The position numbers and the translations under genes were made by a program. From assembly GCA_000585015.1 (NCBI GenBank), contig JFAX01000007.1, positions 26,077-60,783 of the forward strand: a stretch of DNA of 34,707 nucleotides. The letters run 5' to 3'. How positions within the stretch are numbered: position 1 is the first letter of the stretch; every line of letters starts with the position of its first letter. The notes beneath the pieces were generated by a model. That model had not been told where the DNA came from and searched no databases. It saw only the letters and a list, made by a program, of their open reading frames with translations. Positions 263-29,584 of the stretch are shown piece by piece. Origin of the DNA: Candidatus Accumulibacter adjunctus. Its GTDB lineage: Bacteria; Pseudomonadota; Gammaproteobacteria; Burkholderiales; Rhodocyclaceae.

Positions 263-1264
263 ATGGACATTCTGACTCAATTGAACCTGTTCGGACGTTC
301 CCCGGCCTTCCTCAAGGTGCTCGATCTGATCCGGCGCTTCGCTGGATGCGACGCGTCGGTCCTGCTGCAAGGCGAGACGGGCACCGGCAAGGAGATCGCG
401 GCACGCGCCATCCACCACCTGAGTCCTCGCCGCGACTTGCCGTTCGTTCCGGTGAACTGCGGCGCCCTCCCCGATACCTTGCTCGAGAACGAATTGTTTG
501 GGCACGAGCGGGGAGCCTTTACCGATGCTCGCGAAGCGCGCCGGGGATTGGTTGCTGCCGCAGCCGGTGGGACCCTGTTCCTCGACGAGGTCGAGGCGAT
601 GAGTCCACGCGCCCAGGTCGTGCTGTTGCGTTTCCTGCAGGATCACACGTATCGGCCGATAGGCGGCCAACAGTGCACGACCGCCCCACTTCGCGTGATA
701 GCCGCCAGCAACGCGGACCTCAGGCAAATGGCCAGCAACGAGCGTTTTCGCCTCGATCTGCTCTACCGGCTGGGCGTCCTGACGGTCGTCATGCCGCCCC
801 TGCGTGAGCGCGAAGGCGATGTGGAACTGCTCGCCGAGGCATTGCTGGCAAGACTCAGCGTGCAGTATGGGCGCCAGTTCGCTCGGCTGCATCCGGAGAG
901 CCTGCGCTGGATGCAGCGATATGATTGGCCCGGCAACGTCCGTGAACTGGAGAACGTGCTGCTGCGCGAATTGCTGCTCACCGATGCTTCGGAATTGCGC
1001 ATCGCCTCCCCAACGCCACCACCGAAAGCGGTCGATCAGTCAATAGCCGGCGAGGATAGCCGCGTCGGGTTCAGCCAGGCCAAGGCCGAGGCGATTCTAC
1101 GCTTCGAGCGCACCTATCTGGATGCTCTTCTGGCCCACGCGCACGGCAACATGTCCCTCGCTGCGCGCATTTCCAGCCAGGATCGCGGCGCCCTCAACCG
1201 GCTCGTCAAGAAGCACGGCATCAAGCCGGATAGCTACCGCCGACAATCCCTCCCCACCGCCTAG
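263..1264 (+). CDS. sigma-54-dependent transcriptional activator (AAA+ enhancer-binding protein)
   Basis: This 333-residue protein has the sigma-54 activator AAA+ domain: Walker A GETGTGKE (residues 37-44), the sigma-54 contact loop as GAFTDA (84-89) instead of the usual GAFTGA, and Walker B LFLDE (105-109). A Fis-type helix-turn-helix follows near residues 285-325. No receiver, GAF or other sensory domain precedes the AAA+ core, which begins almost at the N-terminus, as in PspF-type activators. The start at 263 follows a purine-rich GGGGGGA. The frame stays open upstream to 47, but that extension looks non-coding and overlaps the promoter. A consensus sigma-54 promoter faces the structural operon downstream, so this is probably its dedicated activator (inference). 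Without a sensory domain its activity is probably set by expression level or a partner protein. Confidence 0.92.
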   Translation: MDILTQLNLFGRSPAFLKVLDLIRRFAGCDASVLLQGETGTGKEIAARAIHHLSPRRDLPFVPVNCGALPDTLLENELFGHERGAFTDAREARRGLVAAAAGGTLFLDEVEAMSPRAQVVLLRFLQDHTYRPIGGQQCTTAPLRVIAASNADLRQMASNERFRLDLLYRLGVLTVVMPPLREREGDVELLAEALLARLSVQYGRQFARLHPESLRWMQRYDWPGNVRELENVLLRELLLTDASELRIASPTPPPKAVDQSIAGEDSRVGFSQAKAEAILRFERTYLDALLAHAHGNMSLAARISSQDRGALNRLVKKHGIKPDSYRRQSLPTA

Positions 1265-1274
1265 CAGTTCCGCA

Positions 1275-1305
1275 AGGCAGGCACTGCTGCGCCTGGCCTG
1301 CTTTT
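1275..1305 (+). terminator. Rho-independent terminator after the activator gene
   Basis: AGGCAGGC (1275-1282) and GCCTGGCCT (1291-1299) can pair with one bulged base around an 8-base loop, followed by GCTTTT. It lies 11 bases after the activator stop codon. It would separate the activator transcript from the sigma-54-driven operon. The T-tract is short, so strength is uncertain. Confidence 0.5.
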
Positions 1306-1333
1306 GAGGCTCGGCGCCTGTTCTCGTGCCTCG

Positions 1334-1453
1334 CTGGTGCTGACCAGTCCCACCTGAGGCAATTCCGTCTCACCCTGCCGCCGTGCCATCCGCTCAAGGA
1401 CTTGCGGCCCCACCAAGCACAAGACAGTGGGACCGCTGTGCCGCAGGGTCTTG
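1334..1453. promoter_or_regulatory. inverted repeats in the non-coding stretch, candidate enhancer sites
   Basis: The gap 1265-1642 has no convincing gene. It holds a perfect inverted repeat CTGGT-N4-ACCAG (1334-1347) running into GTCCCAC (1347-1353). The reverse complement GTGGGAC recurs at 1427-1433 inside the imperfect palindrome ACAGTGGGACCGCTGT (1424-1439). CAAGAC (1420-1425) and GTCTTG (1448-1453) flank it. These lie roughly 85-200 bases upstream of the predicted sigma-54 start, the usual range for upstream activator sites. That the neighbouring activator binds them is inference. Confidence 0.35.
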
Positions 1454-1509
1454 TCAGGCCGGACTTTCCGGCTCCTGCAAAATCAGGTACTTGACGTCCT
1501 GCTGCCGGA

Positions 1510-1524
1510 TGGCACGACTATTGC
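1510..1524 (+). promoter_or_regulatory. sigma-54 (RpoN) -24/-12 promoter of the injection-system operon
   Basis: TGGCACGACTATTGC matches the sigma-54 consensus TGGCAC-N5-TTGC with correct spacing. Transcription would start near 1536, giving a leader of about 107 bases before the first ATG at 1643. The site points into the structural operon and lies between the sigma-54 activator gene and the first structural gene, which strengthens the call beyond a chance motif match. Confidence 0.75.
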
Positions 1525-1642
1525 CTCCTATTTTGCCGTAGGCAGGTAACGGGGTCGCCAGAAGCTGGCAAGAGCCGAAGCGAAACACGCCAAGTCGCAA
1601 CAGCCGGCGGCAGGCATCGGCTGGGAAGACACGGGAGGCCGC

Positions 1643-1876
1643 ATGTACGGGAACGATCCGGAGGTCATTGCGCTCGCAGCCGAGATCGAGTGCTATCTCA
1701 AGGAGCACCCGGAAGCGGCGGACACCACGGAGCACATTGCCAGATGGTGGATTCTCAGGCAGCGGATCGAGATGGGGCTCGCTCTCACCCAGAAGGCTCT
1801 CGACCACCTCGAGGCGAAGGGAGTCGTCGAGCGCACCCAGCAGGGTCTTTACGGGCTTGCCCAGAGGCGTGGGTGA
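1643..1876 (+). CDS. small protein, possible winged helix-turn-helix, first gene of the operon
   Basis: This 77-residue protein has good coding character and a GGGAGG ribosome-binding site 4 bases before its ATG. Residues 5-35 look like an alpha-helical segment (IALAAEIECYLKEHPEAADT), followed by WWILRQRIEMG. The segment around residues 45-70 (ALDHLEAKGVVERTQQGLYG) resembles the recognition-helix and wing part of winged-helix proteins. A small DNA-binding regulator is the simplest guess, but no specific family was recognised. It could equally be a small adaptor of the particle. As the first gene after the sigma-54 promoter it is well placed for feedback control. Confidence 0.65.
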   Translation: MYGNDPEVIALAAEIECYLKEHPEAADTTEHIARWWILRQRIEMGLALTQKALDHLEAKGVVERTQQGLYGLAQRRG

Positions 1877-1922: not shown

Positions 1923-2513
1923 ATGGCCAGTGATCGAGCGATCGCGACCGTCGGCAGGGCCATCGTCGGGCTGATGAAGGACCACTGCCGGGCCGATCTG
2001 GCGAGGGGCGCCGACTTCGAACTCTACGGTCCGCAGAACTTCGACAACCCGATGGGCTACGGTGTCTCGCTGATGCTCTATCGAATCGCGATCAACGCCA
2101 GCCCGCGTAACCGCCCGCCGCGCATGACGGCAACGGGAAACAAGATGCGGCCGTCGCTGCCGCTTGACCTCCACTATCTGCTGACAGTCTGGGCGTCGGC
2201 AGTCGATACGCAGCATCTCATGCTCGGCTGGGCGATGCGATTCCTGGAGGACCGGGGCGTGCTGCCCGCAGGCGTCCTCAATGCCTACGATGCCGAGCCC
2301 GATACCTTCGGCGCCGGGGAAGGGGTCGAACTGATTTGCGATCCGCTCGGACTGCAGGACTACCTGCAGATCTGGGACAAGCTGAAGACCCGGATGCCGC
2401 TCTCGGTGAGCTATGTCGCGCGGATGGTGCTGCTTGATTCCAAGTTGCCGATGAGCGCCCCCGCGCCGGTGCGAACCCGAGACTCCTCGGCCGGCGAAGG
2501 GGTGGTGCCGTGA
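1923..2513 (+). CDS. DUF4255 family protein (Pvc16/Afp16-like tail terminator/cap)
   Basis: This 196-residue protein looks like the DUF4255 (Pvc16 N-terminal) family: an N-terminal helix (ASDRAIATVGRAIVGLMK), then beta-rich segments with LSLMLYRI-like, LPLDLHYLLTVWA and HLMLGWAMRFLED motifs. In Afp/PVC particles this protein caps the distal end of tube and sheath and ends polymerisation. The frame is open upstream to 1668, but the ATG at 1923 has GGAG 9 bases upstream and gives the normal family N-terminus. It lies 46 bases after the small gene and overlaps the next gene by GTGA. Confidence 0.85.
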   Translation: MASDRAIATVGRAIVGLMKDHCRADLARGADFELYGPQNFDNPMGYGVSLMLYRIAINASPRNRPPRMTATGNKMRPSLPLDLHYLLTVWASAVDTQHLMLGWAMRFLEDRGVLPAGVLNAYDAEPDTFGAGEGVELICDPLGLQDYLQIWDKLKTRMPLSVSYVARMVLLDSKLPMSAPAPVRTRDSSAGEGVVP

Positions 2514-3446: not shown

Positions 3447-6400
3447 ATGCCCGAATACCTCGCCCCAGGCGTATACGTAGAGGAAACCTCCTACCGCGCC
3501 AAGTCGATCGAGGGCGTCAGCACCACCACCACCGGGTTCGTCGGACCCACTCGCTACGGGCCGATCGACATGGAGCCCGAGATCGTCACCAGCCTCGGAG
3601 ACTTCGAGCGCGTTTATGGCGACGGGCAGCCGCTCGAGTTCGCCGGCGGGCGTATGCACAACTATCTGTGGCACGCCGTGCGTGCCTTCTTCGAGGAGGG
3701 CGGCCGGCGACTATATGTCGCACGCACGTTCCTGCCGCTGCGCGACGCAGGCGCCTCCAGCGTCCCCCCACTCGCTGCCGATGGCAGGTCTTTCGTCAAG
3801 CTGCCTTCAGAGGAGACGCCTGAAGACGACGCCGTGTTCGTCAAGGCACGCTTCCCCGGTGCGGCCGGCGACCAACGCGTCAGTTTCCGGCTGGGCTTTG
3901 GCGGCAACGTCCTTGCCCGACGCAACGACGAGAAGAGCGACGGCCCGGGCAAAGGCACGGTACGAGGCCTCACAGAATTCGATCTGGTCGGTATCTTCGG
4001 GCCCAGTTTTCGGCCTAGCCAAGCGCCGTTACCGCCCTCGATTGAGGTACTGCGCGATGCCCTGCGCGCTTTGGCGGCCACCGACTCGGCCAGAGCCAAG
4101 ATGCTGGCCTCGAGCAATGTGGAATCGGCCGCTGGAATTGCCGCGCGCGATGCGGCTGCGGCTGCCGCAAGTGCGCGCACTCTCAACGAGTTGGAGGATG
4201 TCGTCAGCGCGCGCGAGGCGGCGCTGCTGCAAGCGCAGCGGGCGCTCGAGTCAGATAATGCGGAGGCTATCGCCGCGACGTCCGCGAAAGAGCTGGCTGT
4301 CGCCGCCAAGAAGGTGGCAGACAACGCGAAGAAGGCCGCGGAGGACGCCGCGACCGCCCAAGGAGCAGCCACCGGGGATGCTGCAAAAAAGGCCACGAAA
4401 AGCGCTGACGCGGCAGGGGCGACGGAGAAGGCCTTGCCAGCGGCGCTCAAGGACGGGGCCTTGCCGGAGGAGATCAAACTCGCTACCGATGCCGCCGACT
4501 CTGGCAAGACTCTCGCCGATGCCGCCAAAGAGGCTGCGGACGTCGTGGTCGAGACGCTTCCGGTCGACGCCACACAGCCGGAAAAGGACGCGGCCAATAC
4601 GGCCGCTGCCAAGGCCGACGAGAGTGCAAGAGCGGCAAAGGCCACTGTGGATACTCTCGCAACAGCGTTGAAACCAGCTGCTACCCCGGAGCAAAAGACC
4701 GCCGCCACCAAAGCCGCCAAAGAAGGTAAGGAAATCGCCGACGCCGCCAAAGTTCTTGCGGACAACGTGGTCACTCTGCTTGCAAGCGGCACGCTGCTCG
4801 CCAAGGTGAATGACGCCGCCGCGGCCGCGACCAAGGCGAACGAGCTTTTCGAAGCAGCCAAGAAGCGAGGCGAAGCAGCGACAAAGGCGATCCAAGACGG
4901 CGAGGACGCCGTGGCCGCGATCACGAAGGACCCAGACGGGCTGCTCGCCGAGGCCAGGCAAGCGCGCGACGCGGCCAAGACCCAGGCCGACATTGCGCGG
5001 GACACGGCAGCGACCTCATCGCAGCACGCGCTGGCGGTCACCAAAGCGCTCGAAGAGCTGACGGGCATTGCGGCAGGCACAGCCGTCGGCCGCCTGTACC
5101 TCGCCCGCTACAACGAACTGGCAAAGCGCTGGGAATTTCATGACAGCAGCGGCGTCGCAGCCTTTGGGGAGCATCAACTCGACCCCGACCCGAAGACCGG
5201 CCACAAGGTCTGCGTGGCAACGGTGACGGTAACGGTCGTCGCGGCAGGCCACCCCGCCAGCCAGTGGGCCGGCTTGCCGCTGGACCCGCGGCACAACCAG
5301 GCCGGCGAGCCCGACCACCTGCTGGCGCGGCTCGGCGAGAAACCGGGAACGCTTGCTGCGGCGCGTTCGCTGCCGGTTACGATCACCCTCGGAAAGAACC
5401 TGCTTGATGCCGCCGGCCAACCGCGGGCGGACGGTATCGCGCTCGCCCGACTGCTGTTCGACGAGATTCCCGACATCAAGAACAACGACAACATCCCGCG
5501 GGAACCATTCGAGACCCGCCTCAACGAGCTCAAGGGCGGCAATGACGGTCAGCGACCCGAAGGTGCCGAATACGAAGGCAAAGGCGACGAAACGGCCATC
5601 GGCAAGACTGGACTCAAGCTTCTCGAGGACCTCGAAGATATTTCCATCGTCGCGGCACCCGGTATCACCTTCGGCATGGAGCACGAGAATTGGCGGCCCG
5701 TGGCGCAGACGATCAACGGCCAGCTGCTCGGCCACTGCGAGCGCATGCGCTACCGCGTCGCGATACTCGACAGCGGCGATGGCCAATCGATCGGCGACGT
5801 ACGCTCGATGCGCGCCAAGATCGACTCCGCCCGCGGCCATGCTGCCCTCTACTACCCGTGGGTACGGGTCCTGGATCCGATCACCCGACAGGAAATCAAC
5901 CTCCCGCCGTCGGGCTTCGTGGCGGGCATCTACGCCCGCAACGATGTCGATCGGGCGGTGTACAAGGCGCCGGCCAACGAGGTGGTGCGCAGCGCGATCG
6001 GCTTCGAATTCCTCCTCAACAAGGCGCAGCAGGAGGTCTTGAATCCGGAAGGCGTCAACTGCCTGCGCTTCTTCGAAGGCCGCGGCTTCAGGCTGTGGGG
6101 CGCGCGCACCGTCAGCTCGGACCCGGAATGGAAGTATGTGAATGTCCGGCGCTACTTCGGCTACCTCGAACGTTCGATTGACAAGGGCACCCAGTGGGCC
6201 GTGTTCGAGCCCAACGGCGAGGCGCTGTGGGCAAACGTCCGACGGACCATCGAAGACTTTCTGCTCAACGAGTGGCAGAGCGGCGCGCTGCTCGGAGACA
6301 AGCCCGAGAAAGCCTATTTCGTCCGCTGCGACCGCTCGACGATGAGCCAGAACGACCTCGACAACGGACGCCTGATCTGCCTGATCGGCGTCGCACCACT

Positions 6401-6461
6401 CAAGCCGGCGGAGTTCGTCATTTTCCGCATCGGCCAGTGGACCGCGGACCGCAAGATTTAA
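3447..6461 (+). CDS. contractile tail sheath protein with a large Ala-rich insertion
   Basis: The N-terminus (PEYLAPGVYVEETSYRAKSI) and the C-terminal third (FFEGRGFRLWGARTVSS, YVNVRRYFGYLERSID, VFEPNGEALWANVRRTI) are classic phage-tail/eCIS sheath signatures (Pvc2-4/Afp2-4, T4 gp18 superfamily). The sheath contracts around the tube to drive injection. At 1004 residues it is far longer than ordinary eCIS sheaths. The excess is an Ala/Lys/Glu/Asp-rich, probably helical segment at about residues 198-545, after which sheath-like sequence resumes (GRLYLARYNELAKRWEFHD). The frame runs through without a stop. A GAGGAGAGA ribosome-binding site precedes the ATG. The matching tube gene follows 18 bases later. 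Confidence 0.95.
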   Translation: MPEYLAPGVYVEETSYRAKSIEGVSTTTTGFVGPTRYGPIDMEPEIVTSLGDFERVYGDGQPLEFAGGRMHNYLWHAVRAFFEEGGRRLYVARTFLPLRDAGASSVPPLAADGRSFVKLPSEETPEDDAVFVKARFPGAAGDQRVSFRLGFGGNVLARRNDEKSDGPGKGTVRGLTEFDLVGIFGPSFRPSQAPLPPSIEVLRDALRALAATDSARAKMLASSNVESAAGIAARDAAAAAASARTLNELEDVVSAREAALLQAQRALESDNAEAIAATSAKELAVAAKKVADNAKKAAEDAATAQGAATGDAAKKATKSADAAGATEKALPAALKDGALPEEIKLATDAADSGKTLADAAKEAADVVVETLPVDATQPEKDAANTAAAKADESARAAKATVDTLATALKPAATPEQKTAATKAAKEGKEIADAAKVLADNVVTLLASGTLLAKVNDAAAAATKANELFEAAKKRGEAATKAIQDGEDAVAAITKDPDGLLAEARQARDAAKTQADIARDTAATSSQHALAVTKALEELTGIAAGTAVGRLYLARYNELAKRWEFHDSSGVAAFGEHQLDPDPKTGHKVCVATVTVTVVAAGHPASQWAGLPLDPRHNQAGEPDHLLARLGEKPGTLAAARSLPVTITLGKNLLDAAGQPRADGIALARLLFDEIPDIKNNDNIPREPFETRLNELKGGNDGQRPEGAEYEGKGDETAIGKTGLKLLEDLEDISIVAAPGITFGMEHENWRPVAQTINGQLLGHCERMRYRVAILDSGDGQSIGDVRSMRAKIDSARGHAALYYPWVRVLDPITRQEINLPPSGFVAGIYARNDVDRAVYKAPANEVVRSAIGFEFLLNKAQQEVLNPEGVNCLRFFEGRGFRLWGARTVSSDPEWKYVNVRRYFGYLERSIDKGTQWAVFEPNGEALWANVRRTIEDFLLNEWQSGALLGDKPEKAYFVRCDRSTMSQNDLDNGRLICLIGVAPLKPAEFVIFRIGQWTADRKI
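4443..4784 (+). repeat. diverged ~74-residue internal repeat in the sheath insertion
   Basis: Residues 333-372 and 407-446 of the sheath align without gaps at about 22 of 40 identities (ALKDGALPEE / ALKPAATPEQ; GKTLADAAKE / GKEIADAAKV). The offset is 74 residues (222 bases). Weaker traces of the same helical pattern occur before and after. The codons have diverged, so this is an old duplication in a coiled or helical segment, not a recent DNA repeat. Confidence 0.7.
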
Positions 6462-6479
6462 CGAACAGAGGAGAGCGAA

Positions 6480-6932
6480 ATGGCTGTTCTACGAGAGCGC
6501 CCCTATGTGCAGTTCAACTTCCTCGTCGACCTGGGCAACGGCAATGCGGAGGCACCGCAAGCCGGTTTCCAGGAAGTGAGCGGCATCGGCATGGAAGTCA
6601 CCCTTGCGGAGTATCGCAACGGCAACTCCAAAGAAAACAGCGTCATGAAGATCAACGGGATGAACAAATCCACCGACGTGACGCTGAAGCGCGGGGTGAT
6701 CGGCTCGCTCGATCTCTATCAGTGGTTGCACCAGATTCGCAATGGCGACCAGAGCGCGCTGCGCACCGTCACCGTCCAGTTGCAGAACGAGGAGCACACC
6801 GCCGTCGTGGTCACCTGGAAGCTGCTGCGCGCCCGAATCATCAAGCACACCAGTGGCCCAATGAACGCCAAGGGAACCGACGTGGCGATGGAAGAGCTGG
6901 TGCTCGCCTACGAGCGGCTGGAGATGGAGTGA
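6480..6932 (+). CDS. tail tube protein 1 (gp19/Hcp-like, Pvc1/Afp1-like)
   Basis: This 150-residue protein has the standard eCIS inner-tube pattern: Y/F-rich N-terminal strand (RPYVQFNFLVDLG), FQEVSGIGMEV, a central MKINGMNKSTDVTLKRGVIG with the TLKRG motif, and a final MEELVLAYERLEM strand. Such proteins stack as hexameric rings to form the rigid inner tube that carries cargo. It is encoded 18 bases after the first sheath and just before the second. GAGGAGAG precedes the ATG at normal spacing. Confidence 0.95.
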   Translation: MAVLRERPYVQFNFLVDLGNGNAEAPQAGFQEVSGIGMEVTLAEYRNGNSKENSVMKINGMNKSTDVTLKRGVIGSLDLYQWLHQIRNGDQSALRTVTVQLQNEEHTAVVVTWKLLRARIIKHTSGPMNAKGTDVAMEELVLAYERLEME

Positions 6933-6933
6933 C

Positions 6934-9450
6934 ATGAGCGCCACCGCCACCCGTCGCTTGCCGGGCATCCGCTTCGAAGGGCGCCCGCGGGCGCTCGACG
7001 CTGCCTTGCCGCGCATGGACGTGGCGGCCTTCGTCGGTTTTGCGGCGCGTGGCCCCCTGCACCTGCCGGTGCCCATCGAGGGCCCTGAGGAGTTCCAGGA
7101 AGTTTTCGGGAACGACCTCAGGCTCGCTTGGGACCGTGTCCACGGACGTTGGGCAAACGCCCATCTGGCGGCCGCCGTACGGGCGTTCTTCGCCAACGGC
7201 GGCGTGCGCTGCTGGGTGGTACGGGTCGCGGGGCCGAATGCTTTCACCAACCGCTTCCGCTTGCCCGGACTGGCGCGCGCCGTCCGCACCGATAGCGGGT
7301 GGGTGCTCACCGCCGCGACGGCCCGCGCGCGCAGCGAAGGCAGTTGGTCGGATGAGCTGCGCGCCTGCACCCGGTTGCAGAGCCGTCCCGCCCAGGTGAC
7401 GATCGCCCGGGTACCCGTCTCGGGCGACGGCCTCGAACTGGAGCTGCGCGCGAGCCCGCCAGCGGCGGCTGGCGACCTGCTGCGCGTCGTCGCCGCGGAC
7501 GGCGTGCGACAGGCTTTCTTGCCTCTCAAGGAACTCGTCACCCTGCGCAAGGACGGCACGAGTTTGCTGAGCGTGGTGAGGGCGAGCCAGGCGCTTCTGC
7601 TGCCAGCGTCCGGCGCCAGCCCGCAGGATGCGGTTCTCGCTTCTTTCGAGTGGCCCAAGACCCGCTGCGACATTCTTTCGTTCGACCTGCGCGTGACCGG
7701 ACTGCAGGGCCGTCCCGAGTCGGACGTCGCCTCCTTCGACCTCCGGGTCGCTGGGCCGCAGGCGCGCCCCGAGCAGCTTGACGGGCTCGGCTTCGTTCCC
7801 GGGCACCCCCGGTACTGGAACGTCCTATCGACCGATGCCGAGCTTTATAGCGCTGGCAAGGCACTCGGCGGGTTTGCTGGCCAACGTTTCCCGCTGGCCG
7901 GCGACGGAGAAGGCGACCCCGATTTCTTCTTTCCGCGTGACATGTCGGGCCTGTTCGACGAGGAAAGCAAGCGCGAGGCTGACAGCCGCAGCAGGCTCGA
8001 GCGCGACGGGCTCGACCAGTTCAGCGCAGCGCTCTTCGTCGACCCGAACCTGCAGAAGAGCACACGCTCCACTCTGCTGGAACAAGCCGACTACCTCCGT
8101 TATCGCAGCCCGCTGCCGCGGCGCCTGCTCGGCGTGCACTCGCTGCTCGGCTGGAACGACCCGGCAGTCTCCGACGAGGTGACCGTGCTGGCGGTGCCCG
8201 ACGCCATGCACCGCGGTTGGCAGCGCGAGAAAGACACGTTGCCCGGGGAGTGGTTCGTCGTTCTGGAGGAACAGCCTGCGTCGACCCCTGCCGCCACCGC
8301 GACCTTCGCCGACTGCGCTTCGCCACTGCTGCCGAAGCTCGTCTGGCGGGATCCGGAATTCATTGCCGCCACCCGCACGCTGCGGCTGCACTGGAGCCCG
8401 GCGCCAGCCAACGCCGATTTGCAGTATCGGGTTGAGGAGTGTGCACTGCAGGACTTCGCCGTAACCGACTTCAGTCGCGCGGTCGCCAGTCCCGAACTCG
8501 ATTGCCCTGGCCGCGAGCCCGGCGAGGCCTTCTTCCGCGTGCGGGCCGAGTGCCAGCAGTGGACGGGTGCGTGGTCGGCGATCCTGCGCGTCCAGCTTCC
8601 GAGCCGCCACGAATTCTCACTATGCGCCCTGGACGAGAAATCCAGCACTCCGGCGTTGTTGCCGGTGCATGGCGCGCTACTGGACATGGCCGCCGCCCGT
8701 GGCGATCTGGTCGCGTTGCTGGCGCTGCCCGAGGACTGGCGGGAGAACGAGGTCCTGCTGCATGCCCGCCAGCTCGCCGAGCGCGATGGCGGCGATCACG
8801 ACCCATCGACCGGCAGTTTCGGTGCCCTCTACCATCCCTGGGCCTGCATGGCTGCGCCAGGGACGCCGCAGCCGCTTGCCGTGCCACCCGACGGCATCGC
8901 CGCCGGCATCCTCGCACGCCGCGCGCGCGAGCGCGGCGCCTGGGTGGCGCCGGCCAACGAAGCGCTGCGCAACGTCGTCGCGCTGACACCCCGACTGCTG
9001 CCCCAACGCTGGCTCGACCTTCAGGACGCGCGGGTCAACGTTCTGCGTCGCGAGCCGGCCTTCTTCACCATCCTCAGCGCCGACACCCTTGCCGGTGAGC
9101 CCGAGCTGCGACCGCTGCAAGTGCGGCGGCTGCTGATCCTGTTGCGCCGCCTCGCGCTGCGCATCGGTGCCGAGTTCGTCTTCGAGCCGCAGGGCGAAGC
9201 GCTGTGGGGAGCCGTCCAGCGGCGCTTCGAACGGGCACTCGATGATTTGTTCCGGCGCGGCGCTTTCGCCGGCGGCAAACCCGAAGATTCGTTCCAGGTG
9301 GCTGTACGTTCGGCGGCCAAACGCGCCGGCGAGGTGGATCAAGGCAGGCTGGTCGTCGAACTGCGGGTGCGTCCGGCACAGGCCCTGCGCTTCATTACCG
9401 TGCGGCTCACCCAGAGCGGTTCCGGCGCCGCCGTGACGGAGGTCTTCTGA
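6934..9450 (+). CDS. tail sheath protein 2 with a fibronectin-III-like insertion
   Basis: This 838-residue protein starts with a sheath-like domain (LPGIRFEGRPRALDAALPR, VAAFVGFAARGPLHLPVPI, AAVRAFFANGGVRCWVVRVA). It ends with the sheath C-terminal fold (GAWVAPANEALRNVVALTPR, FEPQGEALWGAVQRRFERAL, GRLVVELRVRPAQ). The middle is enlarged: residues about 465-555 look like a fibronectin type III module (TRTLRLHWSPAPANADLQYR, then FFRVRAECQQWTGAWSAI). In Afp/PVC particles minor sheath paralogs sit near the baseplate; the same role here is inference. It starts one base after the first tube gene's stop and overlaps the second tube gene by ATGA. Confidence 0.9.
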   Translation: MSATATRRLPGIRFEGRPRALDAALPRMDVAAFVGFAARGPLHLPVPIEGPEEFQEVFGNDLRLAWDRVHGRWANAHLAAAVRAFFANGGVRCWVVRVAGPNAFTNRFRLPGLARAVRTDSGWVLTAATARARSEGSWSDELRACTRLQSRPAQVTIARVPVSGDGLELELRASPPAAAGDLLRVVAADGVRQAFLPLKELVTLRKDGTSLLSVVRASQALLLPASGASPQDAVLASFEWPKTRCDILSFDLRVTGLQGRPESDVASFDLRVAGPQARPEQLDGLGFVPGHPRYWNVLSTDAELYSAGKALGGFAGQRFPLAGDGEGDPDFFFPRDMSGLFDEESKREADSRSRLERDGLDQFSAALFVDPNLQKSTRSTLLEQADYLRYRSPLPRRLLGVHSLLGWNDPAVSDEVTVLAVPDAMHRGWQREKDTLPGEWFVVLEEQPASTPAATATFADCASPLLPKLVWRDPEFIAATRTLRLHWSPAPANADLQYRVEECALQDFAVTDFSRAVASPELDCPGREPGEAFFRVRAECQQWTGAWSAILRVQLPSRHEFSLCALDEKSSTPALLPVHGALLDMAAARGDLVALLALPEDWRENEVLLHARQLAERDGGDHDPSTGSFGALYHPWACMAAPGTPQPLAVPPDGIAAGILARRARERGAWVAPANEALRNVVALTPRLLPQRWLDLQDARVNVLRREPAFFTILSADTLAGEPELRPLQVRRLLILLRRLALRIGAEFVFEPQGEALWGAVQRRFERALDDLFRRGAFAGGKPEDSFQVAVRSAAKRAGEVDQGRLVVELRVRPAQALRFITVRLTQSGSGAAVTEVF
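7678..7773 (+). repeat. tandem 18-codon repeat inside sheath 2
   Basis: SFDLRVTGLQGRPE and SFDLRVAGPQARPE follow each other with an 18-residue (54-base) period. The underlying DNA is also similar (TTCGACCTGCGCGTGACCGG versus TTCGACCTCCGGGTCGCTGG), so the duplication is fairly recent. It keeps the reading frame and probably lengthens a linker or loop before the conserved GLGFVPGHPRYW segment. Confidence 0.75.
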
Positions 9451-9917
9451 TGATTGCCGACGGTAGCGTCCGTCCCTTCTCGGCCTTCAACTTCGAGGTG
9501 CGGATCCGCCGCGAGGGTGAGACCGCTGCGCTCTGCGGCGGCACCTTCGCCGAGTGTGATGGACTCGACATGAGCCTGGACGTCAAGACCATCCGCCAGG
9601 GTGGCGACAACCGGCGGCAGATCCGGCTCGCCGGCCCCGCCGCTTACGGCCAGCTGACGCTCAAACGCGGCATGACCCAGGGCTTCGACCTGTGGAAATG
9701 GTTCTCCGATACGCTCGACGACCCCGGGCTGCGCGCCGACGCCGAGGTCGTGCTGTTCGCTGCCGACGGCAGCACCGAGCAGCTTCGTTTTGCCCTGACG
9801 CGCTGTCTCCCGATCAAGCTCAAGACGCCACCGCTCAACGCCCGCGATGGCGTGGTGGCGATCGAGGAACTCCAGCTCGCCTACGAAACACTCTCCGTAC
9901 CAGGAGCGTCACGATGA
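9450..9917 (+). CDS. tail tube protein 2 (gp19-like, Pvc5/Afp5-like)
   Basis: This 155-residue paralog of the tube protein at 6480 has the same order of motifs: FSAFNFEVRI, FAECDGLDMSLDVK, GQLTLKRGMTQGFDLWKWF, IKLKTPPLNARDGVVAIEEL, LQLAYETLSV. In Afp/PVC a second tube protein forms the first ring on the hub and links spike to tube. The same role is likely here because it immediately precedes the LysM adaptor gene. It overlaps its neighbours on both sides by ATGA. Confidence 0.92.
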   Translation: MIADGSVRPFSAFNFEVRIRREGETAALCGGTFAECDGLDMSLDVKTIRQGGDNRRQIRLAGPAAYGQLTLKRGMTQGFDLWKWFSDTLDDPGLRADAEVVLFAADGSTEQLRFALTRCLPIKLKTPPLNARDGVVAIEELQLAYETLSVPGASR

Positions 9918-10624
9918 GCGGGCTGGTGACGGCGAAGCTGTTCGAGCTGGACGACAAGCTCGAGGACGAGAAATCGGGTGGCAAGCGGGCCAGCGTGCAG
10001 TTCAACCCGGAAACGCTGAAGGTGACCTACGCCAACCAGATCGTCGATCCACCCACCGGCGCCAGCAACCCGGACAACGGATCGGCCAAAGGGCAGTTCG
10101 TCGGCGCCGGCAGCACCAGGCTGGCGCTGCAGCTCTGGTTCGACATCAACGTACCGATGCCGGGCAGCGAACCTTCGGTGGACGACGTGCGTCGCCTGAC
10201 GCAAAGCGTCACCCAGCTGATGCAACCGGAAGCGTCGGCAACGGACAAGCAAAAATACATTCCCCCGGTGGTTCGCTTCGAATGGGGTTCGTTCAAGTTT
10301 GACGGGGTCATCGAGTCCCTGGAAGAGACGCTGGATTTCTTCTCAGAGAAGGGCGTCCCGCTGCGCGCCAGCATGGCGCTGGTGATGTCGCAGCAGAAGA
10401 TTCTGATCATTCCCCTGGGCACCGCCGCCGGTCGCCAGCGGAAGTCGCCAGGCGCCGAACCGCTGGCGGCGGCGGCGCAGGGAAGCAGCGTGCAAGGGAT
10501 CGCCGCGGCGGCTGGCAAGGGTGGCAACTGGCAGAGCATCGCCAGCGCCAACGGCATCGAAAACCCGCGCCAACTGGCCGCCGGACAGCTCCTGAACCTG
10601 TCGACCGGCCGCAAGCGGTACTGA
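9914..10624 (+). CDS. LysM-containing baseplate adaptor (Pvc7/Afp7-like, CIS_tube family)
   Basis: This 236-residue protein starts at the ATG overlapping the previous stop (ATGA). The N-terminal 160 residues carry the contractile-injection tube-initiator pattern (ASVQFNPETLKVTYANQ, STRLALQLWFDIN, PPVVRFEWGSFKFDGVIESL, DFFSEKGVPLRASMALVMSQ). A C-terminal LysM-like module covers residues about 204-230 (WQSIASANGIENPRQLAAGQ). Homologs (T4 gp53, Afp7, Pvc7) glue baseplate wedges to the hub or first tube ring. An Ala/Gly-rich linker separates the two domains. Confidence 0.92.
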   Translation: MSGLVTAKLFELDDKLEDEKSGGKRASVQFNPETLKVTYANQIVDPPTGASNPDNGSAKGQFVGAGSTRLALQLWFDINVPMPGSEPSVDDVRRLTQSVTQLMQPEASATDKQKYIPPVVRFEWGSFKFDGVIESLEETLDFFSEKGVPLRASMALVMSQQKILIIPLGTAAGRQRKSPGAEPLAAAAQGSSVQGIAAAAGKGGNWQSIASANGIENPRQLAAGQLLNLSTGRKRY

Positions 10625-15161: not shown

Positions 15162-17555
15162 ATGCCCCTGGTTCCGCCCCCGCTCGACAGTCGCAAATAC
15201 CAGGATCTTCTGGACGAGGCCCTGGCGCGCATTCCGGTGCACACGCCGGAGTGGACCAACTTCAATGCCAGCGATCCGGGCGTCACGCTGATCGAGATCT
15301 TCGCCCACATGACGGAGAGCCTGCTCTACCGCGCCAACCAGATCCCCGAGCGCAACCGCGGCAAGTTCCTCCAGTTGCTGGACGTTCCGCTGGCCCCCGC
15401 GGCTTCCGCCCGGGGGCTGATCACGATCAGCAACGACAACGGTCCGCGCGACGAGGTGATCATCAACGGCGGGCTCGAGGTGCTCGCCGGCGACATCGCT
15501 TTCCGTAGCGAGCGCGGGCTCGACGTGCTGCCGCTCGAAGCGCGACTGTACACCAAACGCCTCGTCACCGACCCCACCGGCGAGCTCGACGCGCATTACA
15601 AACTGCTCTATGCGTCGCTGCGGCCGCAGGAGAGCGACGCCGCGAGCAAACCCACGCTCTACGAAACCGTGGCTTTCGACGGAGAGAGTGCGCAGGGCCT
15701 GAGCCTGGGTGACGATACGGTCGACGGCTGCCTGTGGATCGCGCTCCTGGTACGCAGCCGCGACTACGCACAGGCCGCACAGGCGCCGGACAAGGAGAAG
15801 CTGCGGCAAAGCCTGCGCGAAGCGCTCGCCGGCAAGACGCTCAACCTCGGCATCGTCCCGGCGCTTGGGCAGACCGAGCGCCGGCTCGAGCCCGGCGGCC
15901 GCACCGCCGACGCCAAGCAGCCACTGCTGCGCTTCCAGATGCCGAAGCTGCCCAAGGGCGGCAAGCTGCCGAAGGCACCCGCGCCGCGGGAGGCCGAGTA
16001 TCGTGCGCTCGATGCCCGCGCGCGCGTCGATGTCCTGCTCGAACCAGGCGTCGTCGAAATCCAGATGCCGGCGGCCGACGAAATGCGCCTGTGGGACGAT
16101 CTCGACCCGCTCGAAAAGGGCTCCGGCGACTTTCCGCCGGCGCTCGACGACACGCGGCTCGACGAACGCGTGCTGACCTGGATCCGCGTCGCCTCCGACG
16201 CACCGGTTCAGTCGCGGCTGCTCTGGGTCGGAATCAACGCCGTCGAAGTCACCCAGCGCGACCGTGTAATGAGCGAAGTGCTCGAGGACGGCAGCGGCGA
16301 GCCCGACCAAGTGCGCACCCTGGCCCATCCGCCGGTAGTTCCCGGTTCGCTGCGCGTATTCGTGGGGCAGCCCAACGGCGAGCAAGGGGCTTGGGAGGAG
16401 TGGCGTTGCATCGACGACCTGTTCTGTGCCGGCTGCGAAGTGCGCGTCGTCGACCCGCGCCAGCCGCCCGGCGCGCCAGTGCCGGAAGCGCGCGAAGACC
16501 GGGTGTTCACCGTCGACGCCGAGTCGGGAACGATCCGTTTCGGCGATGGCTTCCGCGGCCGGCGGCCGGCCGCCGATGCGCGCCTGCGCGCGACCTACGA
16601 CAGCAGCCGCGGCCCCGCCGGCAACCTCGGGCGCGGCGCAATCAACAGCGCACCGGCGCTTCCCGGCGGCTTCAAGGTCGCCAATCCGGTCCGCACCTGG
16701 GGCGGTGCCGCCGCCGAAGCGCAGGCCGAGGGCGAGAAACAGATCGCCCGCTATCTGCAACACCGGGACCGGCTGGTAACCGCCGGCGATTTCGAAGCAC
16801 TGGCGCTGCGCACGCCCGGGCTCGCCGTCGGCCGCGTCGAAGTGCTGCCGGCGTTCATCCCGGAACTCTCTCCCGACGCGCCCGGCAACGCCCCCGGCGC
16901 GGTGACGCTATTGCTCATCCCGAGCTACGACCCGCTGCACCCGGACACGCCGGAACCGGATCGCCTCTTCCTCAACGCCGTCTGCACCCACCTCGACCCA
17001 CGGCGGCTGATCACCACCGAGCTGATCCTGCGCGGACCCGACTACCGCGACCTCTGGATCACCGTCGGCGTCGATGTGCTCGCCCTGGGGCGCAGCGTGC
17101 CCGAGGTGCGCGACGACGTGAAGCTGAAGCTGCTCGACTTCCTGTCGCCGCTGCGCGGCAGCGGCCTGCCCGATAGCGACGCCGCGCTGGTCACCCCGGA
17201 ATACGCCGACATGCGCAAGGGCTGGCCGCTGCGCAAGGCCGTGTCGGCGCTGGAGCTGATGGCGGTGGCCAGCCGCGTGCCGGGTGTACGGCTGGTGCGC
17301 GGCGTGCGCCTGGCCGATCCGGACGGACGTGAAGCGCCCGAGATCGTCATGCGCGGGCTGCAACTGCCGCGGATCGCCGGCATCGCCGTCGAAGTGGGCG
17401 ACGCCCGCGACCCGCGCGAGCTGATCGGTGGCGTGCCGCAGGCAGGCCCTGACGGGCAAAGCAGCGGACAGGCGGGTATTGGCGAACAGGGCAGCGCAAG
17501 CCGCACGCGCCGGCCGCGAATCCTGCCGGTGCCGGTCATTCCCGAGCAATGCTGA
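15162..17555 (+). CDS. baseplate J / gp6-like wedge protein (Pvc11/Afp11-like)
   Basis: This 797-residue protein is a putative baseplate assembly protein. The N-terminus has the conserved FNASDPGVTLIEIFAHMTES and YRANQIPERNRGKFLQLLDV. The middle has the J-domain motif FTVDAESGTIRFGDGFRGRR, then VTAGDFEALALRTPGLAVGR. The C-terminal domain contains YADMRKGWPLRKAVSALELM. It forms the wedge ring around the hub with the tail-protein-I partner encoded next. A Gln/Gly/Arg-rich tail follows. The stop overlaps the next ATG (TGATG). Confidence 0.94.
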   Translation: MPLVPPPLDSRKYQDLLDEALARIPVHTPEWTNFNASDPGVTLIEIFAHMTESLLYRANQIPERNRGKFLQLLDVPLAPAASARGLITISNDNGPRDEVIINGGLEVLAGDIAFRSERGLDVLPLEARLYTKRLVTDPTGELDAHYKLLYASLRPQESDAASKPTLYETVAFDGESAQGLSLGDDTVDGCLWIALLVRSRDYAQAAQAPDKEKLRQSLREALAGKTLNLGIVPALGQTERRLEPGGRTADAKQPLLRFQMPKLPKGGKLPKAPAPREAEYRALDARARVDVLLEPGVVEIQMPAADEMRLWDDLDPLEKGSGDFPPALDDTRLDERVLTWIRVASDAPVQSRLLWVGINAVEVTQRDRVMSEVLEDGSGEPDQVRTLAHPPVVPGSLRVFVGQPNGEQGAWEEWRCIDDLFCAGCEVRVVDPRQPPGAPVPEAREDRVFTVDAESGTIRFGDGFRGRRPAADARLRATYDSSRGPAGNLGRGAINSAPALPGGFKVANPVRTWGGAAAEAQAEGEKQIARYLQHRDRLVTAGDFEALALRTPGLAVGRVEVLPAFIPELSPDAPGNAPGAVTLLLIPSYDPLHPDTPEPDRLFLNAVCTHLDPRRLITTELILRGPDYRDLWITVGVDVLALGRSVPEVRDDVKLKLLDFLSPLRGSGLPDSDAALVTPEYADMRKGWPLRKAVSALELMAVASRVPGVRLVRGVRLADPDGREAPEIVMRGLQLPRIAGIAVEVGDARDPRELIGGVPQAGPDGQSSGQAGIGEQGSASRTRRPRILPVPVIPEQC

Positions 17556-26702: not shown

Positions 26703-27473
26703 ATGTCCACACTGATCGGCAACCCTCTCCTCTACTGGGGGGCGGGAGTGGCGGCCACGCTCGCCGTCGCGGTGTGGCAGGCTGACCGGGCACGGCTGGA
26801 CCCTTGGGCCATGTACTTGGCAGGCATCGCCGGCTTTGCGGGCGGTCTTGTCGGCGGCGGGGTCTACGCGCTGCTCGTTGGTCCGGAGCATGCCCACCAG
26901 GCGTCGCAGACGCGCGGGGCTCTCGGGGCGCTTGCTGGCGCAGCGGCCTTGGCTTGGTTTCTGCTGCGGATTCGCGGCGAGCGTTACTTGGACTACGCGG
27001 ACGCGGCGGCGCCAGCGATAGCGCTGGGCTATGCGGTGTACCGCTTCGGCTGCTTCTTCAACGGCTGCTGCTTTGGCACGCTCACCACGGTTTCATGGGC
27101 GGTAACCTTCGGCCGCGGAACAGAAGCATTCGCTAGCCAAGTGGCGGCCGGTTTGATCGCGCAGGACGCGGCTCACACGTTACCGGTGCACCCGGCACAG
27201 TTCTACCATGCCACGGTGGGCATTGTCGGCTTTCTCTTGTTGCTCCGGCTGCCTAGTACGGTGTCCGGCACGCGGCTGGCATTCGCCCTCGCCTTCTACG
27301 GGGCGACGCGGTTAACAATCGAGTTCCTGCGGGCCGACGCCCTTCCGGTTGTGGGTCCGCTCGACGTCAACCAGCTCGTGTGTCTCGCGATGATGGTCGG
27401 GGGCGCCCTTGTGTGGCTGTTCCGCCCGTCGGTAAAACGTTCTTGTGTCGCCCTCGAGGAGCACTCCCCTTGA
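26703..27473 (+). CDS. Lgt-family (prolipoprotein diacylglyceryl transferase-like) membrane protein, non-canonical
   Basis: This 256-residue polytopic membrane protein has the Lgt-family core: FAGGLVGGGVYALL, a helix pair, then YRFGCFFNGCCFG where true Lgt has GRIGNFINGE-type sequence, LPVHPAQFYHATVGIVGFLL and ATRLTIEFLRADALP. The Arg residues of the central motif and of the IEFLR segment are kept. The HGGL motif of true Lgt appears as RGAL, so the conserved His is absent. It may therefore act on another lipid-transfer substrate than ordinary prolipoproteins. It sits between the membrane-anchored CBM9-like protein and a structural gene, overlapping the latter by TGATG. The upstream protein is a possible substrate (inference). 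Confidence 0.82.
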   Translation: MSTLIGNPLLYWGAGVAATLAVAVWQADRARLDPWAMYLAGIAGFAGGLVGGGVYALLVGPEHAHQASQTRGALGALAGAAALAWFLLRIRGERYLDYADAAAPAIALGYAVYRFGCFFNGCCFGTLTTVSWAVTFGRGTEAFASQVAAGLIAQDAAHTLPVHPAQFYHATVGIVGFLLLLRLPSTVSGTRLAFALAFYGATRLTIEFLRADALPVVGPLDVNQLVCLAMMVGGALVWLFRPSVKRSCVALEEHSP

Positions 27474-29584
27474 TGGCGCAAACGGGGGCCAGTGGCACGT
27501 CGATCGGACGGCTACGCCTGAGGAGCGGTGGCCGAGACACACTGGGCGCTTCGCTATGTGCCGAGGCGATGCTGGCAACGGTCGACCTGCAGCCCCCTGC
27601 CCTGTCGCCAACTGCGGTCCTCCTGATACGTACCCTGCGGGATCCGCTGCCCGGTTCGATTTCTCTTCGCCGCTTCGCAGCGGTCCCGCCGCGCTGGCAG
27701 GCAGCGGTGACCGGTGCGCTCGACCAGGCCGCGCAACGGGCGGTGCGCCCCGCGTTGGGGGCCGTCCCGGCCGGTGCCGAGGCGGTCCTGTTCGCCGACC
27801 GCGCCGAACTGCTCGCCTGCCTCGCCCATGACTGGCTCGCCGGCGTCGCTGCCGCGCGCTGGTGGTGGCAGGCCCTGTTCAACCGACAGGATCTTCACCG
27901 GGCGGTGAGCCGAGCCTGGAGCGAATCACCCGAGTTTGTCCCCGCGATGTTCGAGCGCCTCGCGCGTGAGGGTGTCGCGGTTGGCTTCGTGCAGGCACTC
28001 GACGCGCCGGTCGCCGAGGCAATGCTCGAAGCCCTCGTTCTGGCCCATGGGCTTGGCTCGCTGCGGGCAGCGCTGGTCAGAGCCAAGCGCCCCGCCGGCG
28101 CAGCAGCGTCGCTCAGCGGGAACGGCGGGCGGGAGCGAGATATCGACCAGGCACCGGCGATCACCATGGCACGCGCCGGGGCGACCACCTCGCCGGTTCC
28201 GGTTCCCCCTGCGCCAGCGCCGCCGTTGATCGCCCATCGCGTACCAGAGGCGTTTGCTTCACCGCTGTCGTTCCGCCAAAGGGCTCTGCTGGCAGTAGCG
28301 CTGTCGCTGGCGCGCGCGCCCGCCGAGGCGCGTAGCACCGGGTTTGCAGTGGCCATCGCGCTCTGGCTGCGGGCTGTGGATGAGGCTGATACCTCTGGGC
28401 CGCAGGTTCGTCGAGCAGCAAGGGGCGAGCCGGGCTGGGCTTGGCAGCCGCAGGCAGCGAACCAGGGCGCCGCCGACGCTGGGGAAGGGCCTTCTGCGAC
28501 CGGCAAGTCGGTCACAGTGGCCGCATTCCGGAGCGCACCGCACTCGGAAGCTGTGCTGCCGAGGCTCGACGCCGGCCAGGAAGACTCCGCCGCGCCGCCA
28601 TCGCCATTGGCCTCGCACGATTCAACCGGACTCAGGCGAGCGCCGCACGACGCCGTTGCGCCGACCGCACCGCCGCCGATTACCCTGACGAACCTGGCCC
28701 CGGTGACCATACAGCCGAGCGCGTTGGTCCCGGCCGGCGATCAGGCGCGCAGCCCGGTGCCGATCGATTCTGCCTTCGTCGCAGACTCCGCAGCCGTCGC
28801 CTCTCCGTTCGATGACGCGCAGACGACCGCCTTCGAGGGCCGGGTCGTGGCGACCGAATTCGGCGGTCTTTTCTGCCTGATCAATGCCGCCCTCGCGCTG
28901 GGCCTCTACGGCGACTTCACGATGCCGGCCGAGCGGGGAATCGACCTGTCGCCGTGGGATTTCCTCGCGCTCGCCGGAGAGCATCTCGCCGGCGCGGAGT
29001 TCCGTGGTGACCCGGCCTGGCCGCTGCTCGCCCAGCTCGCGGGACGGACCGAGGGCGAGGCTCCCGGAGCGCACTTCGCGCCGCCGCCGGAGTGGCGCAT
29101 GCCGGCCGCCTGGCTGACACCCTTCGCTGACTGGCGCGGTCTGTGGCGCCGGCAGAACGACGCCGCGCGGCTGCGCGTGTTGCACCCGGCGGGTTTCGTG
29201 CTGGTCGACGTGACGCGCGATGGTTCGCCGGTCGAGGAGCAGATACACCAGGAGCTGCGCCCGTACCGGGAAGAACTCCGCTTTCGCCTGCGCGCCCGGG
29301 GCGAGCAGCCACCGGCCGAGGACGTGTCACCGTTCGACCGCTGGTGCGGCTGGCTGCTGCCCTACCTCGGGCGGCGACTGGCGCTCGCCATGGGCCTGCG
29401 CAACGTGCGACGCGCGGCAAGGCTCTTGCTGCGGCAGCCGGCACGCATCGAGGTGTCGGCGGCGCGCGTCGACATTCACCTGCGTCTGGCCGACCTGCCG
29501 ATCAGCGTGCGGCTCGCCGGCCTCGACCGCGACCCCGGCTGGGTGCCGGCGGCCGGTCGCTTTCTGGCTTTCCACTATGACTGA
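27473..29584 (+). CDS. large eCIS-associated protein, possible tape-measure (Pvc14-like)
   Basis: This 703-residue protein starts at the ATG overlapping the Lgt-like gene's stop. The N-terminal 200 residues are Ala/Leu/Arg-rich (SIGRLRLRSGG, then long helical stretches). Residues about 215-450 are a low-complexity Pro/Ala/Ser linker. The C-terminal 250 residues hold a conserved-looking domain (ATEFGGLFCLINAALALGLY, SPWDFLALAGEHLAG, WCGWLLPYLGRRLALAMGL). Position directly before the AAA+ gene matches Pvc14/Afp14, the tape-measure protein that sets tube length. Sequence similarity to that family is not clear to me, so the role is inference from order. The stop lies 8 bases inside the AAA+ gene. 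Confidence 0.7.
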   Translation: MAQTGASGTSIGRLRLRSGGRDTLGASLCAEAMLATVDLQPPALSPTAVLLIRTLRDPLPGSISLRRFAAVPPRWQAAVTGALDQAAQRAVRPALGAVPAGAEAVLFADRAELLACLAHDWLAGVAAARWWWQALFNRQDLHRAVSRAWSESPEFVPAMFERLAREGVAVGFVQALDAPVAEAMLEALVLAHGLGSLRAALVRAKRPAGAAASLSGNGGRERDIDQAPAITMARAGATTSPVPVPPAPAPPLIAHRVPEAFASPLSFRQRALLAVALSLARAPAEARSTGFAVAIALWLRAVDEADTSGPQVRRAARGEPGWAWQPQAANQGAADAGEGPSATGKSVTVAAFRSAPHSEAVLPRLDAGQEDSAAPPSPLASHDSTGLRRAPHDAVAPTAPPPITLTNLAPVTIQPSALVPAGDQARSPVPIDSAFVADSAAVASPFDDAQTTAFEGRVVATEFGGLFCLINAALALGLYGDFTMPAERGIDLSPWDFLALAGEHLAGAEFRGDPAWPLLAQLAGRTEGEAPGAHFAPPPEWRMPAAWLTPFADWRGLWRRQNDAARLRVLHPAGFVLVDVTRDGSPVEEQIHQELRPYREELRFRLRARGEQPPAEDVSPFDRWCGWLLPYLGRRLALAMGLRNVRRAARLLLRQPARIEVSAARVDIHLRLADLPISVRLAGLDRDPGWVPAAGRFLAFHYD

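Follow-up and report, generated by a model that had tools for sequence, protein, structure and literature searches.

What switches on an eCIS, a phage-tail-like injection particle, is poorly understood, and the locus analyzed here raises the question of whether an eCIS operon can be under sigma-54 control through an activator of its own. By the window we mean the whole 34.7-kb stretch of DNA that was analyzed (contig C7:26077-60783 of a 4.4-Mb genome). Judging from the sequence and its comparison across related genomes, we consider it very probable (about 0.88) that sigma-54 RNA polymerase drives the eCIS operon from a promoter at 1510-1524 and that the polymerase does so only once remodeled by the adjacent activator. 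A sigma-54 promoter would give a strict off state for costly eCIS particles. This reading predicts a start site and, for relatives, a binding sequence, which makes the control directly testable.

The eCIS genes of the window

The eCIS was recognized by a single cluster in the window that holds genes for sheath, tube, Pvc16, baseplate and AAA ATPase.

1923..2513, + strand: Pvc16-like protein, first eCIS gene (PF14065, 9.2e-34)
3447..6461, + strand: tail sheath 1, 1004 aa (PF04984, PF17482)
6480..6932, + strand: tube protein 1 (PF06841)
6934..9450, + strand: sheath-like protein 2, 838 aa (weak PF04984 match, 0.0096, below cut-off)
9450..9917, + strand: tube protein 2 (PF06841)
9692..10624, + strand: CIS tube/LysM protein (PF19266, 2.1e-23; true start inside the frame)
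15162..17555, + strand: baseplate assembly protein (TIGR02243, 8.1e-74)
29220..31709, + strand: AAA ATPase of the eCIS cluster (PF00004, 1.1e-22)

A type VI secretion system (T6SS) was considered and rejected: VipA/VipB, TssF and TssG were absent by Pfam from 23 window reading frames (scanned at E <= 0.001, 0.01 or 1 according to subset, one of them a mis-framed orf1), and the same families were detected in the T6SS loci of relatives.

The sheath-like and tube genes at 3447-9917 form tandem pairs, two of each, and the Pfam sheath domains of the first sheath are confined to its last third. A prolipoprotein diacylglyceryl transferase gene (LGT, 2.9e-32) lies within the cluster at 26703-27473. 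At the cluster's end, the 978-aa product of 31719-34655, which carries a DNA/RNA non-specific endonuclease domain at its C-terminus, looks like cargo. The same genome carries a partial second eCIS on a short contig (L057, G000:C45:1-8000), whose remaining ~1.1 kb of upstream DNA holds neither an activator nor a good sigma-54 site.

A single-domain activator precedes the operon

263..1264, + strand: single-domain sigma-54 activator (bEBP), 333 aa, loop GAFTDA (PF00158, E 9.5e-60; AAA_lid_14)

The sigma-54 activator gene that the original prediction placed before the eCIS operon was confirmed. Its product has the Sigma54_activat AAA+ domain with Walker A and B that marks a bEBP; by sequence reading, Walker A is GETGTGKE and the L1 loop GAFTDA, and GET-G-[TS]-GKE and GG-[TA]-LFLDE were present in 12 of 12 aligned activators. 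A domain scan of the 333 aa found no N-terminal sensor domain. Pfam gave no HTH in the activator at E <= 0.01, though a conserved C-terminal motif is present, and across the aligned family the form of this motif varies with whether a locus has the UAS palindrome described below. The label 'PspF-type' was apt for the domain layout and wrong for equivalog status, the PspF equivalog model TIGR02974 giving 241.3 bits, under its cut-off of 443.55.

The loop read GA[FY]TDA in 43 of 44 members of the activator family (the exception, L148, has GAFTTA) and GAFTGA in 6 of 8 own-genome paralogs, the loops of the other two being unread. Passages of PMC4641369 list GAFTDA among loop variants that would maintain activation and give target operons for DVU2106, which bears it. 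In a passage of PMC10714721, sigma-54 was not recovered with a GAFTDA protein, and the loop change was left open as the cause. The window's genome contains rpoN, three HU/IHF-family genes and 14 Sigma54_activat matches, 8 of which, besides the neighbour activator, are strong (E <= 8.5e-58). On plasmids the activator had no match at E <= 1e-70.

Promoter elements upstream of the operon

1510..1524, + strand: sigma-54 promoter TGGCACGACTATTGC (-24/-12), exact to TGGCAC-N5-TTGC and conserved in relatives
1481..1493, + strand: IHF-like site AATCAGGTACTTG, exact to WATCARNNNNTTR, starting 29 bp ahead of the -24 box
1446..1461, + strand: weak, doubtful remnant of the family UAS palindrome, with 2 mismatches to GGGTCN6GACCC

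The sigma-54 consensus, the IHF consensus and the site weights used here are what we take to be the accepted ones. The consensus promoter that had been predicted proved to be the only exact match to TGGCAC-N5-TTGC in the window (1 found, 0.10 expected by chance), and its GG and GC doublets are kept in relatives. Taking the C of the GC doublet (1524) as -12 would place the transcription start at about 1536, the same position as originally proposed. Across the whole genome there were 19 exact -24/-12 matches and 10 for a reversed control pattern, so a lone exact match is weak, and it is place and conservation that carry the argument. A consensus scan found no sigma-70-like promoter in 1-2000 (0.3 expected).

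The terminator and inverted repeats that the original prediction set before the operon were at chance level. One terminator-like stem was found (1278-1295) and 1.4 were expected, the window's inverted repeats were not above chance, and we retained neither as a functional element. The best window match to the family UAS, at 1446-1461, was likewise rejected on its 2 mismatches; it is probably no real site, the HTH of this activator being different.

Activator and promoter occur together across eCIS loci

A Pvc16 profile matched 30 of 61 genomes. We compared 41 eCIS loci, made up of the window locus and 40 fetched regions, one of them the second locus of the window's genome. The activator was present in 16 and absent from 25. 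Over the 1300 bp leading up to the first eCIS match, the best site reached a score of 14 or more (of 15) in 13 of the 16 loci with the activator and in none of the 25 without it, where the first BLAST match was often the sheath, so that the 1300 bp scanned may be coding, and some of which lie near contig ends (L025, L027, L057). Fisher's test gave 3e-8 with relatedness ignored; since the loci are interrelated, neither this value nor the shuffle p-values given below are independent. A wider scan of 2500 bp at score 14 gave 14/16 against 0/25. Two loci without an EBP, L036 and L048, contain an exact match to TGGCAY-N5-TTGC lying some 2 kb ahead of the eCIS genes.

The check that had been proposed, a search of related eCIS loci for a conserved activator and -24/-12 site, thus came out in favor of the prediction, in that the two co-occur where the activator is present. 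The expectation failed in part, 25 of the 41 loci being without the activator; since many related eCIS loci lack both activator and promoter, we regard the control as that of one eCIS group and not of all. Among the EBP-less Accumulibacter eCIS, no obvious regulator was seen in 10 genes chosen from those lying upstream at seven loci (L025, L026, L030, L033, L039, L061, L062).

Promoter, orf1 and eCIS genes stood in conserved order in most of the activator-bearing related loci. The best site between activator and orf1 scored 12.7-15 in all 23 eCIS loci tested, with a shuffle p <= 0.05 in 22 and <= 0.01 in 14; p <= 0.05 was reached in 4 of 9 T6SS-type loci and 4 of 6 others. Left out of this test were L122, with orf1 3.6 kb off, and L124, L128, L132, L139 and L143, in which orf1 was not found. 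Ten Accumulibacter loci had two sigma-54-like sites, [AC]TAGCACG-N4-TTGCT 5' of orf1 and TGGCACG-N4-TTGC 5' of pvc16.

An upstream palindrome marks the promoters of many relatives

With at most 1 mismatch allowed, GGGTC-N6-GACCC occurred in 28 of 52 regulatory regions, whereas 30 shuffles averaged 2.0 such regions and never gave more than 6; for this count the L049 region was limited to 1300 bp (it was extended for the spacing and helix comparison), and L179, L198 and L203, which duplicate L147, L031 and L029, were excluded, as they were from the tree. In L001 and L023-L062, 31 of 50 palindrome matches fell within the 13,777 bp of activator-eCIS DNA, out of 441,321 bp. Copies were often paired, 20 bp apart. 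From the nearest copy to the -24 box, start to start, the distance was 89 bp in 9 of 10 main-type Accumulibacter pvc16 promoters, 90 bp in the tenth and 112 bp in two second-type loci.

Grouped by activator helix as read by script, the palindrome was present in 22 of 25 regions with ERR, 3 of 17 with DRG, DRS or DRR, and 4 of 10 in which the helix was another one, misread or cut. The window activator is DRG-type and the window has no palindrome; the same is true of its nearest relative, L130, whose activator is 74% identical and has the same QDRG helix. No clear common palindrome was visible when the three nearest promoter regions were aligned.

A composite pattern of palindrome, spacer and promoter gave 9 matches in 28 Accumulibacter genomes, one in each of nine, and 0 for the reversed control. 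All 9 sit between the genome's own activator and its pvc16 genes; the window's own genome had none. No other result points so strongly to an activator that is dedicated and has one main target. Taken with the 13/16 and 0/25 counts above, it argues for the dedicated sigma-54 control of the eCIS operon that the original prediction had put forward.

For the IHF element, 54 sites were reduced to 46 promoters by dropping 6 that were in genes or secondary and 2 with <60 bp upstream. The IHF consensus was exact within 75 bp before the -24 box in 5 of the 46, the window promoter among them (200 shuffles: mean 0.145, maximum 2); with one mismatch allowed, the count rose to 12 (mean 2.9, maximum 8). In many relatives the best match fell at the same register (-28 to -30); the main-type Accumulibacter promoters matched poorly, with 2-3 mismatches.

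The activators of L148, L174, L181 and L225 form a branch of their own with the C-terminal end KK(D/N)RRA(F/L)FEL(M/I)RKH, and other upstream repeats were seen in L225 (TTTTGTCC..GGACAAAA), L148 (TTTTATCC..GGATAAAA) and L174 (CATCC..GGATG). It looks as if, in this branch, a change in the activator helix had gone along with one in the DNA site.

The first gene of the operon encodes a small partner

1643..1876, + strand: ORF1, 77-aa winged-helix-like partner, first gene of the operon (weak winged-helix matches only)

The gene at 1643 had been taken for the first structural gene, a description that we revise: its product is this 77-aa winged-helix-like protein, and the first eCIS gene is the Pvc16-like one at 1923. 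The ORF1 family has the signature AADT-x-EGI-xx-WW, which in the window copy reads AADTTEHIARWW, with EHI. No Pfam or NCBIfam match above cut-off was obtained for the family, and Pfam gave no match between ORF1 and PspA.

An ORF1 profile, built from eCIS-linked copies, allowed a search independent of activator and promoter. It matched 13 of 369 genomes of the class, the window's own included. In the other 12, orf1 had an eCIS downstream in 9, a T6SS in 1 and neither in 2, one of these at a contig end. All 12 had a best -24/-12-like site of 12.6-15 of 15 located 70-136 bp 5' of orf1, scores that come without a shuffle control and of which 6 of 12 exceed 13.3, the best of the EBP-less loci. In 7 of the 12 the fetched DNA also contained the activator, in 2 of those on the opposite strand. 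The small partner protein is a good marker for such loci.

PspA is a feedback regulator of PspF. By analogy, and with less confidence than we have in the promoter, we infer that ORF1 is the best candidate for a partner that sets the activity of the activator, as a feedback regulator; a partner would have this role since the activator itself lacks a sensor domain.

The activator family extends to T6SS loci

Among 300 genomes of the order there were 31 activator matches of at least 382 bits, the next scoring 337. An eCIS lay directly downstream of 10 of them and on the same contig, with the activator past its far end, in 3; a T6SS accompanied 9, immediately after the activator in 7, about 6 kb further downstream in 1 and on its other side in 1; and 9 had no contractile machine in the fetched flanking DNA, one of these being at a contig end. 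Within a set of 27 genus relatives the family was present in 13, all of which adjoin an eCIS, and absent from 14. Three genomes with an eCIS and no neighbour activator (G014, G016 and G026) had no such EBP elsewhere at E <= 1e-100.

In a tree of 50 proteins, 40 (30 eCIS, 6 T6SS, 4 other), the window's activator among them, grouped together with support 100/99, and outside that group were 6 own-genome paralogs and 4 eCIS-linked activators of another type. The six T6SS activators formed a single nested branch (100/96), so that, if the paralogs mark the root, the module passed to the T6SS lineage a single time.

At the T6SS-type loci with activator and orf1 (L134, L136, L137, L138, L141, L142, L149, L140/L165 and L144/L170), the two genes adjoin T6SS operons (VipA/VipB, Hcp, gp25, TssF, TssG). 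In L134, L136, L137, L141 and L142, -24/-12-like boxes lie ~600-1060 bp past the activator, with TTGT or TTGA replacing TTGC. Upstream of four eCIS loci, L175, L234, L236 and L239 (Solimonas, Sphingomonas, Novosphingobium and Aquabacterium), there is an EBP of a different branch with sites of 12.7-14.4, which suggests that sigma-54 control of eCIS may have arisen repeatedly. L125:2780-6429 holds an activator, a full-score sigma-54 site and orf1, followed not by an injection machine but by papain-family protease and peptidoglycan-binding-domain genes; this is perhaps a remote effector operon.

We also searched named genomes by sheath. Among the best 80 of at least 594 loci, a set biased to the window's sheath and with little upstream DNA at several loci, an EBP was found upstream in 20 (15 at >= 327 bits, 5 weaker) and orf1 alone in 2 more. 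These 22 loci span beta-, gamma- and alpha-proteobacteria; judged by title, 25 of the 80 best loci lie outside Pseudomonadota (Actinomycetota, Cyanobacteriota, Chloroflexota, an archaeon and others), and none of those is among the 22. The named carriers, for example Pseudorhodoferax, Aliikangiella marina and Lysobacter psychrotolerans, are places to look for the signal that switches an eCIS on.

Alternative explanations

The site could be real and the eCIS be driven from it by another EBP of the genome, with the neighbour activator serving other promoters. Room for this is left by the 8 other strong Sigma54_activat domains, the 19 exact -24/-12 matches genome-wide against 10 for the reversed control, and the absence of the family UAS from the window. 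We nevertheless think it very improbable, given that activator and site co-occur (13/16 against 0/25), that G014, G016 and G026, whose eCIS has no neighbour activator, have no such EBP elsewhere either, and that in the 9 genomes having the composite UAS-promoter pattern it marks the eCIS promoter only. Equally poor are the chances that an undetected vegetative promoter mainly transcribes the eCIS, leaving the sigma-54 site as a relic or minor promoter. In its favor, 25 of 41 related eCIS loci have no sigma-54 module, and consensus scans for sigma-70 sites can miss the promoters of GC-rich bacteria; against it stand the count of zero sigma-70-like sites in 1-2000 and the recurrence of the site, the IHF-like element and the gene order in different families and in alpha-, beta- and gamma-proteobacteria.

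It is also conceivable, though unlikely, that the promoter mainly makes ORF1, and that ORF1, as a DNA-binding protein, then activates or represses the structural genes. The ten Accumulibacter loci with separate sigma-54-like sites for orf1 and pvc16 would suit such an arrangement. The window itself does not, as only 46 bp separate ORF1 from pvc16 and no second site lies there, so that read-through from the one to the other is expected.

A model for the control of the operon

For direct sigma-54 transcription of the eCIS operon under the adjacent activator, we envisage the following course. The activator would bind upstream DNA as an oligomer, IHF would bend the promoter DNA, and ATP hydrolysis would open the promoter, after which transcripts would continue through ORF1 into pvc16, sheath and tube. 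The sensor-less activator may in turn be controlled by a partner, and here, with less confidence, we would name ORF1 as the candidate, it being the first product of the activated promoter.

The comparisons show that the window is no isolated case: it belongs to a widespread module that has a regulator-like second gene and a T6SS branch. A bolder proposal, for which we would give somewhat less than even odds, is that a portable cassette of sensor-less GA[FY]TDA activator, 'AADT-EGI-WW' winged-helix partner and UAS-IHF-sigma-54 promoter constitutes a general contractile-injection switch of Pseudomonadota, which would have arisen with eCIS and been acquired once by a T6SS lineage, the partner acting as the sensor or anti-activator that sets the time at which the machine is made.

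Comparison with known systems

Among openly accessible journal papers, judged by title and the start of the abstract, we found no literature on sigma-54/RpoN control of eCIS; what came up was mostly on T6SS or its hosts, as with PMC6653060, a T6SS study from the literature joining contractile injection and sigma54/RpoN. In one paper that mentions sigma-54, extracellular contractile injection occurs solely in the title of a reference. We found none that joins Accumulibacter with contractile injection. Sigma is not mentioned in passages of PMC10598620, PMC12961389, PMC12923769 and PMC11297309. The eCIS regulators given in PMC8213781 are BTAD, RfaH and GerE, the last of LuxR type and present in 25.8% of loci. 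These resemble the window in that regulator genes adjoin eCIS loci; the terms sigma and enhancer are absent from the main text of that paper, whereas the window regulator is a sigma-54 activator. DVU2106 of Desulfovibrio vulgaris is, like the window activator, a single-component GAFTDA activator with target operons, but in the passages of PMC4641369 that describe them these are cell-division operons, with no injection particle.

One regulator family would tie the control of eCIS to that of T6SS. Sigma-54 control of type VI secretion was reportedly described by Bernard in 2011, and VasH is known to have a regulatory N-terminal region. In the sections of PMC10482370 that describe sigma-54 and EBPs for T6SS, the likeness is clear, a contractile injection machine being opened by sigma-54 and a cluster-encoded EBP. 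VasH serves a T6SS, whereas the window has an eCIS, an EBP without an N-terminal domain, the loop GA[FY]TDA and a dedicated small partner.

The PspF/psp system differs from the window in that the window activator is under the TIGR02974 cut-off and ORF1 has no PspA match. The psp operon has an IHF site, a sigma-54 promoter and a regulator-like first gene, and it is in this layout, with a sensor-less EBP beside the operon, that the two are alike.
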